A stretch of 64,000 nt of DNA from Ignavibacteriaceae bacterium (lineage in GTDB: Bacteria > Bacteroidota > Ignavibacteria > Ignavibacteriales > Ignavibacteriaceae): contig JAHBUO010000004.1 of assembly GCA_019638025.1 (NCBI GenBank), positions 1 through 64,000 of the forward strand, given 5' to 3'. A model generated the notes under the pieces. It saw only the letters and a list, made by a program, of their open reading frames with translations, did no database searches and was not told the DNA's origin. The position numbers were made by a program, and so were the translations under genes. Positions 37,796 to 42,334 of this stretch are shown here, piece after piece. Positions within the stretch are counted from its first letter, which is position 1; each line of letters starts with the position of its first letter.

Positions 37796-37835
37796 AATAA
37801 AAAAAACCTGCCCATCAAAGTTTTGATAGGCAGGT
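37796..37835 (-). terminator. Rho-independent terminator of the sulfur redox operon
   Basis: Stem CCTGCC-ATCAAA / TTTGAT-GGCAGG, with one mismatched pair and a 2-base loop, at 37807-37835. On the minus strand it is followed by eight Ts and more AT-rich sequence. It lies 41 bases after the stop of the YeeE-rhodanese gene. Confidence 0.85.
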
Positions 37836-37875
37836 CACCTGATAAAAAAAATTTTAAGCAAAGTGATAAAAAAAA

Positions 37876-39066
37876 CTAACAACCACCAATAACACGCTTT
37901 GATTCCTTCTTAACCACAACTATGTTTTTATTTTTTTCGATTAATTCAGGAATAACAATGCTGGCTTTTTTCTTAAACCTGACATTACTCTCCTCTTGTC
38001 TTGTTGAGGTAGTTAAAGGTAAACTAGGATTAATAATTTCAGTATAGAATTTATTCATTCCCCCCTCTAATACTCTAATATTGCTATGTCCAAGTTCAGT
38101 TGCAATAACTGCAGCTTTCATAGCATCTAATTCATTTTCCGCAATAAAGACATTTATGTTGTTTCTAACATCCAACATCTTCCCGCCGTCTTTAGTGAAT
38201 AGTTCATCAATTGTCATATTAAATGATTGAGGTAATTTTGTTCTGTTAAATTGTTCCGGAGTTCTGAAATCAAGGATATTAATTCGCACATCTTTATCCA
38301 TTAACCGAAATGCAAGTTCATCTGATGTTATTCTTTTGATTTCAACCGAGTTCAAAAATTTTTCATCTTCAACCTTCGATAGAACAACCTCTTTCTTGAC
38401 CGGCAACATAAAGGCAGTCAAGCCGAACAAAAACATTATCGAAACAAAAGCATAGAAATATTTTTTAACAGGTACATCCTCATTAGGTTTACCGGTAACT
38501 TTAGCTTCTACAAATCGAACAGCAATAAATGCACCTACCGCCATCACTGTCAACAAAAATGCAAAAAGAGCTTGCGATGTTCCCAATACTTCAAACATAG
38601 TTATGTTGCCCCAGTTTTCAGCTAAGTATAACCCCTCGAAGACGGGATAAGCCTCAGCAAACAACCAAACTCCTATAAATGACCCGGCAACGAAAATAAT
38701 TGCATCGATTTTTCCGATTGCAGCTGCACAGACAGAAGTCCCGGGACAAAATCCCCCAATTACAAAACCTAATCCCATAATCAATCCGCCCACTAAAGCT
38801 GAATATAAAAATGTCGGATTAATGTATATCAAACTTATATCGAGGATTCCAAAATGTGCGAAAGCTATCACTCCTATCATCGCCGTAATTCCTGCTGTGA
38901 AGAATACACGTAATACCGTAAAATCGTATCCATAGAAAAGTCCGACAAGTTTTTTTGAAGTGGAAAATCCCGCTTGCTCAAGTATATAACCGAAAGCAAT
39001 TCCAATAAAGATTGCGACTACAAAGTTTAATTCATTTGAAATAATATCCGGTACTAATGGTCCCAT
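37876..39066 (-). CDS. YeeE/YedE sulfur transporter fused to a rhodanese-like domain
   Basis: A 396-residue protein from the ATG at 39066, which has an AAGGA ribosome site; an in-frame TTG upstream is unlikely. The first ~210 residues hold several transmembrane segments of the YeeE/YedE (DUF395) family, which moves thiosulfate or sulfur compounds. The conserved cysteine motif is GGFCPGTSVCAA. A further TM (FYAFVSIMFLFGLTAFML) leads to a rhodanese-like domain (about 255-365; ILDFRTPEQFN, VLEGGMNKFY). Its active-site loop reads VFIAENELDA with no cysteine, so it cannot form the usual persulfide there. The chain ends in I-G-G-C, leaving a C-terminal cysteine. It is the last gene of the operon. 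Confidence 0.85.
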   Translation of the reverse strand: MGPLVPDIISNELNFVVAIFIGIAFGYILEQAGFSTSKKLVGLFYGYDFTVLRVFFTAGITAMIGVIAFAHFGILDISLIYINPTFLYSALVGGLIMGLGFVIGGFCPGTSVCAAAIGKIDAIIFVAGSFIGVWLFAEAYPVFEGLYLAENWGNITMFEVLGTSQALFAFLLTVMAVGAFIAVRFVEAKVTGKPNEDVPVKKYFYAFVSIMFLFGLTAFMLPVKKEVVLSKVEDEKFLNSVEIKRITSDELAFRLMDKDVRINILDFRTPEQFNRTKLPQSFNMTIDELFTKDGGKMLDVRNNINVFIAENELDAMKAAVIATELGHSNIRVLEGGMNKFYTEIINPSLPLTTSTRQEESNVRFKKKASIVIPELIEKNKNIVVVKKESKRVIGGC

Positions 39067-39080
39067 TTTATAATTCCTTC

Positions 39081-39596
39081 TTAAATCCAAAGTTTTCTAA
39101 AAAAGTAAGCAAAGGCATAAGCCCCGCCGAATATTGCAAGCATCGTTATAATACCCCCAAATGAAAGCACAGCCATTCCGCTTAATGCCGATCCGCTTGT
39201 ACAGCCTCTTCCAAGTTGCGCTCCTAAACCAAATAATGCACCACCAAGAAGAGCTGTAATGATTCTCGTTTTTGATGTTACACCCTCTTTTCTCTCAAGA
39301 GTAAAGTTCAATCGGTTTGAAACCAATCCTGAAATAAATGCCCCTATAATCACTCCGATTACTTCAAAGACAAGCCAATTTTTTAGAGGATTATTTTCAT
39401 GTTCTCGCATGTAGTCACTATAAAACTTGGAACTTTCTCCATGACTCGGAGCGATAGTAGTTACAGCCGCTACAACACTACTTTTAACTGCACCACTTGC
39501 GCCCAAACCTCTTCCGGTTATAAAAATTGTTACAAGTAATAATAACCCTAATAATACTCCGGCTATGTAAGGATTCATATATTTTGTCTGTTCCAC
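39081..39596 (-). CDS. YeeE/YedE family transporter half
   Basis: A 171-residue membrane protein of the YeeE/YedE (DUF395) family. The GTG at 39596 is preferred as start: it follows GAGG by six bases and begins one base after the upstream cytochrome b stop. The internal ATG at 39578 has no ribosome site. About four transmembrane segments are visible, with the family motif LGRGCTSGSALSGMAVLSFGG holding the conserved cysteine of the sulfur-conducting path. It probably forms one half of the transporter, and the next gene supplies the other half plus a rhodanese-like tail. The spacing to that gene is 14 bases. Confidence 0.85.
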   Translation of the reverse strand: MEQTKYMNPYIAGVLLGLLLLVTIFITGRGLGASGAVKSSVVAAVTTIAPSHGESSKFYSDYMREHENNPLKNWLVFEVIGVIIGAFISGLVSNRLNFTLERKEGVTSKTRIITALLGGALFGLGAQLGRGCTSGSALSGMAVLSFGGIITMLAIFGGAYAFAYFFRKLWI

Positions 39597-39597
39597 T

Positions 39598-40263
39598 TTA
39601 AACCTCTTTCCCCGTTTCATTTTCTTCTGATGATTTTGAAGAAATATTCTCTTCATGACTTTCGAGTTCTTCGTAACCTGTAATCATTGCTTTTATATTA
39701 GATGTAATTGTTTCACCCGTTGTAATCAAGTAGAGGTGGGCAATGATAAAGGCAATCAATATAAATGCCCCTAAAGTGTGTACATAAGCAATTAATTCAA
39801 GCGAATCAATATTTAAAGATTGAATTGATTCTTTTTGCGGATAACGATAAAACATATAGAGCAATCCTGAAATTACCATTACCGGAATTACCATTACTTT
39901 TAACCCAAGATAAACCAATTTTTGAAGCGGATTGAGTTTGCTCAATACACTCTTTTTAGTTGGATGGGGAGCGTTTCTGAATATTCCGATTAAGTAAAAA
40001 TTGATTTGTGCTCTAATATTTTTTAATGTCGGAAGATACTGCTTCCATTCTCCGGTTGAGAAATGCCAAAAGATTGCAAAGATAATTAGTACGATAAATG
40101 TATAAGCAGCAATATTGTGATAATTAACAGCATTTTCGTAACCAAAAAATCGGAAAGAACCATGAATCTCAAATCCCGTTGCAACTAAAAAGAAAATTAA
40201 AATTGATTGAGTCCAATGCCAAAATCTTTCAAATGAGCGATAGATATAAACTTGCTTTTTCAC
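39598..40263 (-). CDS. Cytochrome b/b561-type membrane subunit
   Basis: A 221-residue diheme cytochrome b of the Ni/Fe-hydrogenase/thiosulfate-reductase gamma-subunit type. Four to five transmembrane helices carry histidines suited to heme ligation: RFWHWTQ near residue 16, NYHNIAA near 49, and the C-terminal YVHTLGAFILIAFIIAHLYL. It would pass electrons between the quinone pool and the octaheme cytochrome encoded immediately upstream; the two genes touch at 40263. The hydrophilic tail is rich in glutamate and serine. Confidence 0.85.
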   Translation of the reverse strand: MKKQVYIYRSFERFWHWTQSILIFFLVATGFEIHGSFRFFGYENAVNYHNIAAYTFIVLIIFAIFWHFSTGEWKQYLPTLKNIRAQINFYLIGIFRNAPHPTKKSVLSKLNPLQKLVYLGLKVMVIPVMVISGLLYMFYRYPQKESIQSLNIDSLELIAYVHTLGAFILIAFIIAHLYLITTGETITSNIKAMITGYEELESHEENISSKSSEENETGKEV

Positions 40264-41837
40264 TATTTCGCTCCTTTCTTTAATTTCTTTGAAGAATAAA
40301 TACGAACCGTCAAATGACTTAGAACCCCAATCAGTGTTAAAAATATGATTGCTTTACCGAATGTTTCAATAAATTCCGAATAATCTCTTCCCGGCATATA
40401 AAAATCATTTAGACCGGCTAAACGGCTCTCTTTACGGGTATGGCACTCAATACAGTCAACCGATTTATCTTTTGTAGAGACCATATGATTAATTGGCCAT
40501 GTCATTTCTGTATTTATAAAACTAATTTCTCCACTAAAAGGAAGATTAACATCTTTCATTCCTATTTCTGAAGCACGCTTCCAATCAAAATCTTTCCACA
40601 AAGCTCCTTCACCATACTTATCAGAAAATAATTTTGGTTGTATAAGCATTTTGTTTACAGGATCAAACGGTTGCCTTGCTCTATGAATTTTAACAGGAGT
40701 TATTTTCGATTCATTATCATCATAACTTCCCTTTAGATTGTTTACCTTAAGTGGTTTGGTTGTATCCTCGACAATATCGCCAAGCATATAATGATCTGCG
40801 GTACCGTTGAACCAGATATATTCCGGTTGCAAATTCTTACCCCATGTAAATGAGCCTTTAATTGAAAGATATGTGTGATTCCCATCTTCATCTTCAATAT
40901 GATATGGTTGACCATCACGTAAATCACCGGCGGTTGACCAATTCCAATCTGTTTTTGTTGCATTCACTTTTGCATAAATCGGAATATGACAAGTTTGACA
41001 AGCTACTTTTATTGTGTGTTCATTTAATATTCCGGATTCATGCGGTTGTTCACCGTGGCATTGTTCACAAGTTGAACGATTTCTGTTCATTGACGAAAGA
41101 GAATAAACTCTACCCAACATCATATGGTTTTCACTTGTATGACAAGCTACACATGACATGTTTATTCCGTCCACAGCCATGTGAACATCAATTTCTTTTG
41201 TTGGTTCAAACATTGATTTTTCAAGGTCACCATGCTTTACATTGTTCCCACCACCACCGAAGAAATGACAAACGCCACAATTTGAACGTGTAGGAGTTCC
41301 AACATTTTGCGCAATTTTGGTAAGATTAATATTTGGATCAGGGGCTCCACCTTTTTCAGAAGCCTTTACATATGTTTCGGTTTGGTCATGACACACAAGA
41401 CAATCGATATTATTTTCATTCGTGTATGCTTTTAGCTGGTCAGTCATACCAAATCCGACATGGCATTTCGCACAACTTTGTTCATTCCCCTCAACACCTA
41501 TACAAAAATTATTAATTGCATTTTTCTTACCGATGTACACTATACCTCTTCCTTCGATATATTCTTCTCTCTCCCAATTCCAGTGATTTGACGCCATAAC
41601 TTCTTTATGTCGTTCCGTATGGCATGCAATACAAGTTGCAGTTACCTCTTGCGGGTTAGAAAAGTTTTTTTGAAGTGGTGGAAGTTTTGCATGATCAACA
41701 GATTTTTGCTTCTCTTTATTATACTTTTGTTTCAACAAATTTACATTGGATTGTATAATTTCTGTTGGCTTAAGAAATACAATTGCCAAAGTGATTACAA
41801 ATCCGATTAAGACAAGTACTGTAGCTATTTTTTTCAT
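40263..41837 (-). CDS. Octaheme c-type cytochrome, tetrathionate reductase family
   Basis: A 524-residue membrane-anchored multiheme cytochrome. Eight CxxCH heme sites begin at C69, C122, C146, C187, C229, C257, C280 and C462. The fourth, CGVCHFFGGGG, with the KHGDL motif just after it, is characteristic of the octaheme tetrathionate reductase (OTR) family. An N-terminal signal anchor (IATVLVLIGFVITLAIVFL) and a C-terminal helix (~495-515) hold it at the periplasmic face. OTR-type enzymes reduce tetrathionate, nitrite or hydroxylamine in vitro; the physiological substrate is not settled. Pairing with a cytochrome b and YeeE transporters favours sulfur compounds. A probable operator precedes it. 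Confidence 0.9.
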   Translation of the reverse strand: MKKIATVLVLIGFVITLAIVFLKPTEIIQSNVNLLKQKYNKEKQKSVDHAKLPPLQKNFSNPQEVTATCIACHTERHKEVMASNHWNWEREEYIEGRGIVYIGKKNAINNFCIGVEGNEQSCAKCHVGFGMTDQLKAYTNENNIDCLVCHDQTETYVKASEKGGAPDPNINLTKIAQNVGTPTRSNCGVCHFFGGGGNNVKHGDLEKSMFEPTKEIDVHMAVDGINMSCVACHTSENHMMLGRVYSLSSMNRNRSTCEQCHGEQPHESGILNEHTIKVACQTCHIPIYAKVNATKTDWNWSTAGDLRDGQPYHIEDEDGNHTYLSIKGSFTWGKNLQPEYIWFNGTADHYMLGDIVEDTTKPLKVNNLKGSYDDNESKITPVKIHRARQPFDPVNKMLIQPKLFSDKYGEGALWKDFDWKRASEIGMKDVNLPFSGEISFINTEMTWPINHMVSTKDKSVDCIECHTRKESRLAGLNDFYMPGRDYSEFIETFGKAIIFLTLIGVLSHLTVRIYSSKKLKKGAK

Positions 41838-41881: not shown

Positions 41882-42334
41882 TTAACGCGAAATTCTTTTC
41901 TTTAAATCTTCAATTAGAATTTCAAGAAGATGAGCAATTGCTTCTCTTTTATCAAGATCGAGTTGTTTAAGCAAATTCAAATTAATATTGATGTGACTTT
42001 GGTATAAATTTGAAACAAACGGCTTGCTCTTTGGTGTAAGACTAACAAAGATATTTCTTTTATCAGCTTTGTCTATTGTTCGTGTTACAAACTTTTTAGT
42101 TTCTAGTTTTGTTATTATTTGAGTAATTCGCCCCGGAGTTAAATTCAACTTAGCACAAAGTTCTTTTATTGAAATTGTTTCGGTGAAAAAGAAGATTTTT
42201 AATAATCTGAATTCTGCAGGGGTTATATTGAAACTTGTAGCGAAATATTCTTCGCTAATATTACATGTTCTTGTTAAATCACAGATTAATTCTGCAAAAT
42301 GTTCGGCTTCTTTAAGTTCTGATTTGTTAGGCAT
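41882..42334 (-). CDS. MarR family transcriptional regulator
   Basis: A 150-residue winged-helix regulator. The sequence FNITPAEFRLLKIFF, then TISIKELCAKLNLTPGRITQIITKLE (helix-turn-helix, about residues 55-80) and the wing KKFVTRTIDKADKRNIFVSLT are typical of MarR proteins. A cysteine-bearing N-terminal helix (ICDLTRTCNISEEYF) could sense redox or sulfur species, but that is speculation. It is encoded upstream of and on the same strand as the octaheme cytochrome operon. A palindrome lies just upstream of its own start and a related one before the octaheme gene, so it probably represses itself and the operon. Confidence 0.9.
   Translation of the reverse strand: MPNKSELKEAEHFAELICDLTRTCNISEEYFATSFNITPAEFRLLKIFFFTETISIKELCAKLNLTPGRITQIITKLETKKFVTRTIDKADKRNIFVSLTPKSKPFVSNLYQSHININLNLLKQLDLDKREAIAHLLEILIEDLKKRISR

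Follow-up and report, generated by a model that had tools for sequence, protein, structure and literature searches.

Background and comparison with described systems

The physiological role of octaheme tetrathionate reductase (OTR), a multiheme cytochrome c, is unsettled between sulfur and nitrogen metabolism. In lucinid symbionts, otr lies beside soxY-S3 and soxZ (PMC11237559), and in an Ignavibacteriae genome a cluster of Otr with cytochrome b561 has been reported as serving tetrathionate or nitrite reduction, with YeeE genes and the protein arm considered here unmentioned (PMC7509429). In Caldithrix, which has Otr, growth experiments failed to support respiration of sulfur, polysulfide, or thiosulfate (PMC5317091). 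Channels of the YeeE/YedE type, such as TsuA and SoxT, have also been described as two separate halves, PmpA and PmpB, together with their channel cysteines; the SoxYZ carrier has been proposed to feed the SoxT pore, the handover step itself being given as unknown (PMC11582611). How, then, might sulfur pass between a respiratory enzyme and such a pore? This analysis concerns a four-gene cassette in a 64,000-nucleotide stretch of DNA from an Ignavibacteriaceae bacterium (contig JAHBUO010000004.1, positions 1 to 64,000; the window). It encodes, in order, a membrane-anchored OTR, a cytochrome b561, and the two halves of a YeeE-type channel, the second half continuing into a rhodanese-like domain and a tail ending in cysteine (Cys). 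We propose, with a probability of roughly one half (0.52), that the four gene products form a quinone-linked sulfur oxidoreductase in the membrane and that its substrate is handed over on this protein arm.

A split channel with a terminal-cysteine arm

The two YeeE halves are encoded as separate proteins, one PmpA-like and one PmpB-like, and their order is swapped. The first gene matches positions 164 to 309 of the 310 in the Sulf_transp model and is therefore the C-terminal half, while the second covers positions 4 to 161, the N-terminal half. The cysteine of a GRGCTSG motif in the PmpA-like half aligns with TsuA Cys293, and Cys107 of the PmpB-like half, in the motif GGFCPGTS, aligns with TsuA Cys91, so that the pair belongs with the PmpA/PmpB halves of YeeE/YedE. 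Against the NCBIfam equivalogs for TsuA the score is 52.6 bits (cutoff, 400), the channel here being two halves and no single full-length chain. The likeness to PmpA/PmpB, TsuA, and SoxT thus lies in two half-channels with both TsuA cysteines; the difference is that the PmpB half either continues into a transmembrane (TM) rhodanese-arm protein or has a separate gene for one behind it. The cassette also differs from TsuA-TsuB in having no TusA-like partner. The YTD cluster of sulfur disproportionators (YedE, TusA, and DsrE) likewise combines a YeeE/YedE-type channel with sulfur-transfer proteins, whereas the window cassette is without TusA or DsrE and has the periplasmic rhodanese-arm in their place (PMC12998232).

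The rhodanese domain of the second YeeE protein (PF00581, E = 6e-9) is borne out by Foldseek matches to rhodaneses, with TM-scores of up to 0.80 normalized by the target. The catalytic loop Cys is missing from both the window protein and the family consensus, and the domain is, to judge by its sequence, catalytically dead. The reactive part appears to lie elsewhere. The window protein ends in KKESKRVIGGC, with Cys396 as the terminal residue, and nearly all YeeE(N)-rhodanese homologues in the alignment end in GGC, GGCG, GGCS, or close variants. Among 97 homologues, 73 of them fused and 24 split, 95 carry a Cys at one of the final three positions; the two exceptions, L165 and L116, are taken up below. 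The homologues are related and so do not amount to 97 independent events. No other Cys column is conserved across the final 200 residues, where the next best reaches 10/97. The pattern GG.?C stands near the end of nearly all YeeE(N)-rhodanese proteins and near the C terminus of 0/1,382 other genes of the same loci; the exact SoxY-type ending, GGCGG, occurs in 1/74. The linker ahead of the terminal Cys varies in length and sequence, and this divergence, along with the replacement by selenocysteine (Sec) described below, is a stronger argument than the 95/97 count.

The arm is basic (mean net charge of +3.6 over 18 residues), and the tail is predicted to be disordered, with residues 382 to 396 below 50 in the predicted local distance difference test (pLDDT). 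On which side of the membrane does it lie? Loop charges alternate strictly, giving six helices with the N terminus outside, which places the rhodanese domain and the arm in the periplasm. Split homologues have a lysine-bearing N terminus and one signal anchor with the N terminus inside, which implies the same placement. A split of this kind occurs in the OTR cassette of genome G005 (L048:9814-11006), where the fusion gives way to two genes, one PmpB-like and one for the rhodanese-arm part; this suggests that the two can function without being joined. A first-pass annotation of the window had recognized a rhodanese-like tail, which the domain match upholds, and had overlooked the terminal-Cys arm on what is apparently a dead domain. 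A C-terminal sorting or lipid-anchor signal was rejected as an explanation of the GGC tail because no membrane helix follows, and an apparent loss of Cys in locus L165 was rejected as a shifted frame, the continuation of which ends in REGC.

Like the SoxYZ swinging-arm carrier, the protein has a flexible C terminus in the periplasm, where one terminal Cys adjoins glycines (GGC in this protein and GGCGG in SoxY). It differs in its platform, which is a rhodanese fold devoid of Cys and attached to a channel half, with no match to the SoxY domain in Pfam or NCBIfam scans of the window proteins, and in its basic tail and the probable Sec of some members. A profile search also found the structure of Sud (1qxn, E = 1e-4). 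Sud, the polysulfide-sulfur transferase that feeds Psr in Wolinella, is a periplasmic rhodanese-fold protein serving a Psr/Phs-type enzyme, and its reactive residue is the rhodanese-loop Cys. The arm protein is likewise a rhodanese-fold periplasmic partner of Psr/Phs-type enzymes, as described below; unlike Sud, it has lost the loop Cys, and its reactive Cys would be the one on the terminal arm.

A candidate selenocysteine at the arm tip

In a locus from Neomarinimicrobiota (L116), an in-frame TGA occupies exactly the Cys codon, so that SGGG-TGA-Gly-stop is read where relatives have SGGGCG-stop. Two more Neomarinimicrobiota genomes, with DNA identity of 67 to 76%, share this arrangement. In all three, a hairpin of six pairs with a three-base loop starting with G follows 18 bases after the TGA; a real loss of Cys in L116 was rejected on the grounds of this hairpin and of the TGA-G-stop arrangement in three genomes. 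The hairpin has three two-sided compensatory changes, and 16/500 shuffles were as good, a comparison that draws on three sequences only. TGA and hairpin agree with the published model of the bacterial selenocysteine insertion sequence (SECIS), which has a loop of 3 to 9 nucleotides, a G in the first two places, and a distance of 16 to 37 nucleotides from the TGA (PMC13188914). SelB scores over the cutoff in two of the three TGA genomes (G296 and G529), and the selenocysteine tRNA (tRNA-Sec) scores over the gathering score in G296, the one genome tested. The window's own genome has neither SelB nor tRNA-Sec over the cutoff. Sec-containing members of TIGR04315 and of YeeE/YedE are listed in a review (PMC13188914). 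By its sequence context, then, the arm tip of these three relatives is a candidate selenocysteine. As PMC1794560 has it, Sec as a rule replaces redox-active Cys, from which the terminal residue is probably reactive.

The membrane-anchored octaheme cytochrome

The window OTR scores 570 bits against TIGR04315 (cutoff, 375) over the full length of the model (1 to 440 of 440), and its nearest solved structure is 1sp3 (E = 5e-121), the OTR of Shewanella oneidensis (SoOTR). Both proteins belong to the same octaheme family and carry eight CXXCH heme motifs. Residues C112 and K201 match C64 and K153 of SoOTR, which we take to be active-site residues, and the motifs that hold their equivalents are kept in 124/125 and 123/125, respectively, of the OTRs scanned. 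The window protein has an N-terminal signal or anchor. Unlike SoOTR, it is also anchored in the membrane at its C terminus and accompanied by a dedicated b561, YeeE halves, and arm. The C-terminal helix, which has a 19-residue mean hydropathy of 1.82, bears a GVxxHxxxR motif present in 32/38 OTRs with such a helix and 0/87 without. OTRs lacking b561 have no C-terminal helix, and Shewanella OTR loci lack YeeE halves and arm; both observations fit the contrast that had been drawn earlier between this helix and the soluble Shewanella enzyme, and the hydropathy confirms the helix itself. The best NCBIfam match of the b561 subunit is the PhsC-type thiosulfate reductase cytochrome b, below the cutoff.

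Several OTR loci elsewhere have features of their own. In one genome of a Chlorobiaceae-like genus, the gene is broken into several frames with stops (G015:C42:1988-2857), while it is intact in sister genomes. In two Anaerolineae loci (L110:3497-8308 and L125:4196-8410), two different OTR types adjoin each other: a long OTR with a plain b561 beside a short OTR cassette in L110 and a divergent pair in L125. On plasmid pFER4 of Paracoccus ferrooxidans (L154), an OTR followed by a b-type cytochrome frame, without YeeE genes, sits directly behind a suf/cysteine-desulfurase cluster, an arrangement found on large Paracoccus plasmids.

Distribution and partner exchange

OTR exceeds the TIGR04315 cutoff in 41/296 genomes of the phylum. 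The complete order OTR-b561-YeeE(C)-YeeE(N)-rhodanese is present in 24 of 40 OTR loci there, a recurrence that argues against chance. Of the others, one has both YeeE genes and no b561 in that position, seven have OTR-b561 only, mostly in a Chlorobiaceae-like family (a label given here partly from its place in the phylum), and eight have a short OTR alone. No SoxYZ was seen by eye among the neighbors listed for the Chlorobiaceae-like OTR loci. In a scan of one genome per species, the YeeE halves adjoin OTR in 54 of the best 80 loci; the remaining 26 are mostly from Shewanella, Desulfuromonadales, and similar solitary OTRs or lie on cut contigs. Loci were sampled by relatedness and best score, so these frequencies are not population estimates. 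Most of the 54 carry a multiheme-c/b561 fusion of 720 to 950 residues instead of a plain b561. YeeE-bearing OTR loci come from about ten phyla: Chloroflexota, Myxococcota, Pseudomonadota, Bacteroidota, Ignavibacteriota, Spirochaetota, Kiritimatiellota, Bdellovibrionota, Eiseniibacteriota, and Fidelibacterota. The neighborhood comparison suggested in the first-pass annotation therefore finds channel and arm genes recurring with OTR, and gene order conserved across so many phyla strongly supports its idea that quinones, OTR, and a YeeE-type channel are linked in one dedicated unit of the membrane.

Is the trio of channel halves and arm peculiar to OTR? An alignment search of the phylum with YeeE(N)-rhodanese found the same trio in genomes without OTR, where it follows a molybdoenzyme with a twin-arginine translocation (Tat) signal, a ferredoxin-like subunit, and an NrfD-type subunit. 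PhsA is the nearest match of the molybdoenzyme (1e-160 and 1e-141), at scores below the equivalog cutoff. Its TM-rhodanese protein is usually a separate gene and ends in KKKKREGC or GGC. In some Bacteroidota-like genomes, the trio follows a periplasmic rhodanese protein (L164, L167, L178, L180, and L181), with tails ending in VRMGC or MRMGC (RFQC in L167). OTR-type and molybdoenzyme-type copies share a genome in G062, G014, and G296. On a tree built from the channel halves, at least four changes of the molybdoenzyme label are required on well-supported branches, which means that partners were exchanged more than once. The OTR and molybdoenzyme machineries are unrelated; their common ground is periplasmic sulfane-sulfur chemistry.

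Full-length canonical NrfA is encoded elsewhere in the window's genome (G000:C13) and in many other cassette genomes. This, with the PhsA-like operons and periplasmic rhodaneses beside the module, favors sulfur over nitrogen, and a sulfur role for the cassette is well supported. The sulfur half of the earlier suggestion, a complex for respiring or assimilating a sulfur oxyanion, is thus supported, while the substrate, and whether sulfur is respired, oxidized, or imported, are matters that we infer.

Gene layout and regulator

The four genes lie on the minus strand where they had been placed before (Table 1), and order, domains, and terminator agree with the single operon claimed for them. With the better starts, GTG 39596 and ATG 39066, both preceded by Shine-Dalgarno-like sequences, successive genes are -1, 1, and 14 bases apart, the b561 start overlapping the OTR stop by one base. 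The strong terminator right behind the last gene is consistent with one transcript. The genome has a single OTR, and its Sulf_transp genes are just the two cassette halves.

A MarR-family regulator precedes the cassette. Its N-terminal Cys pair (..LIC..L..TC..) is conserved among homologues near these loci, the second Cys in 11/11 and the first in 8/11, and its sequence makes it a possible sensor of thiols, persulfides, or sulfane sulfur. The same type of regulator, with the conserved cysteines, is found at L174:8066-8554, and it occurs near both OTR-type and molybdoenzyme-type modules.

Table 1. Features of the window cassette and of related loci (ORF, open reading frame)
Feature	Position	Strand	Evidence or remark
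MarR-family regulator	41882..42334	-	Family match; 44 bases upstream of OTR
Octaheme cytochrome c, OTR family, 524 aa	40263..41837	-	TIGR04315 match, 1sp3 structure match
Cytochrome b561-type quinol-reactive subunit, 221 aa, GTG start	39598..40263	-	PF01292, E = 9e-30
PmpA-like C-terminal YeeE/YedE half	39081..39596	-	Sulf_transp; GTG start 39596, ORF listed from 39656
PmpB-like N-terminal YeeE/YedE half + rhodanese-like domain + arm	37876..39066	-	ATG 39066, ORF listed from 39090
Arm at the C terminus: final 20 residues + stop codon, net positive, ending in Cys	37876..37938	-	Homologue alignment
Intrinsic terminator, 14 pairs + T-run	37805..37836	-	Directly after last cassette gene
TGA at terminal Cys + SECIS-like hairpin	L116:12780-12830; L192:2735-2790; L193:2660-2715
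PhsA/PsrA-like molybdoenzyme-FeS-NrfD operons with YeeE halves + TM-rhodanese (FeS, iron-sulfur)	L156, L158-L163, L165, L166, L168, L171-L176, L182, L232, L233

Proposed mechanism and alternatives

How might these parts work together? Cytochrome b561 would exchange electrons with the quinone pool and pass them to the periplasmic OTR, anchored next to it through the C-terminal helix. The two YeeE halves would pair as one pore with both TsuA channel cysteines, and the sixth helix would put the rhodanese-like domain in the periplasm, where, its own catalytic Cys lost, it may act as a platform for the flexible, basic, single-Cys tail. Sulfane sulfur or a thiosulfate group would be bound by the arm Cys (probably Sec in some Neomarinimicrobiota) in persulfide or S-thiosulfonate form, just as on the GGCGG arm of SoxY. 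The loaded arm would move between the YeeE pore and the active site of OTR, and there quinol electrons would most likely reduce the S-S bond. Covalent carriage, a physical complex, the reductive direction, and a thiosulfate- or polythionate-type substrate are what we infer. A broader proposal, on which we are evenly divided, is that the membrane-tethered arm family (Cys or Sec tip, dead rhodanese, split YeeE) is a common handover module separately adopted by OTR, PhsA/PsrA-like molybdoenzymes, and rhodaneses and that the natural substrate of OTR is the loaded arm, not free tetrathionate. Independently of this cassette, OTR also stands next to a carrier arm in lucinid symbionts, where Otr lies by variants of SoxY and SoxZ.

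Some points weigh against a sulfur-handing oxidoreductase. Most loci come from metagenome assemblies. OTR occurs without channel and arm in Shewanella, Chlorobiaceae-like genomes, and Geobacter, so OTR catalysis as such can do without the arm. No SelB scores over the cutoff in the third TGA genome (G535, 1.2 Mb), perhaps through incompleteness. The arm could instead be a redox (electron-relay) arm, a metal site, or a docking site. Lastly, SoOTR acts in vitro as a reductase of nitrite and of hydroxylamine (Atkinson 2007, as cited in PMC11237559).

What else could the cassette do? It may serve import, with periplasmic sulfane sulfur made by OTR or a partner being loaded by the arm into the YeeE pore for assimilation, iron-sulfur clusters, or persulfide in the cytoplasm, OTR then being a supplier and not an energy-conserving reductase. 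YeeE/TsuA imports thiosulfate using the two cysteines kept here, SoxT takes in sulfur, probably from SoxYZ (PMC11582611), and in L164, L178, L180, and L181 the module stands beside periplasmic rhodaneses with no respiratory enzyme; the cassette is nonetheless without a TusA/TsuB-like cytoplasmic partner, unlike TsuA-TsuB, and the quinone-linked b561, or elsewhere the NrfD subunits, point to respiration, so that import appears unlikely, if deserving of some weight. Quite improbable is the opposite direction, in which OTR would oxidize arm-bound persulfide or thiosulfate and deliver electrons to quinone: b561 and multiheme cytochromes are reversible in principle and OTR-CYB pairs also occur in Chlorobiaceae-like genomes, yet the arm is missing from those loci, OTR and its PhsA-like counterparts are characterized or named as reductases, and the cassette has no Sox-type oxidizing partner.

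Reduction of nitrite or hydroxylamine by OTR, with the YeeE and rhodanese genes as unrelated passengers, would accord with the in vitro activities just cited and with the conserved C64 and K153 equivalents. It is highly improbable, since channel and arm genes track OTR in order over about ten phyla and the same module accompanies PhsA-like enzymes; nitrite ammonification as the sole role was set aside given this sharing and the separate NrfA. C-terminal Gly-Cys/Sec tails are known redox arms, as in thioredoxin reductases, and the terminal Cys or Sec might similarly re-reduce a disulfide or persulfide at the channel or enzyme with no sulfur carriage. Replacement by Sec fits redox catalysis; the domain, however, has no second conserved Cys for a dithiol, and carriers such as SoxY typically bear a single Cys on a flexible arm, which makes a purely redox role very improbable.

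Significance

Open-access full text yielded no description of the YeeE-rhodanese arm or of its association with Psr or OTR. A dedicated channel and a Cys/Sec arm shared with PhsA-like enzymes give a testable answer to the question of what OTR does, namely, that it acts on arm-bound sulfur. The cassette offers a new way in which sulfur may pass between a respiratory enzyme and a membrane pore, and it brings in a candidate family of selenoproteins whose Sec sits at the arm's reactive tip.

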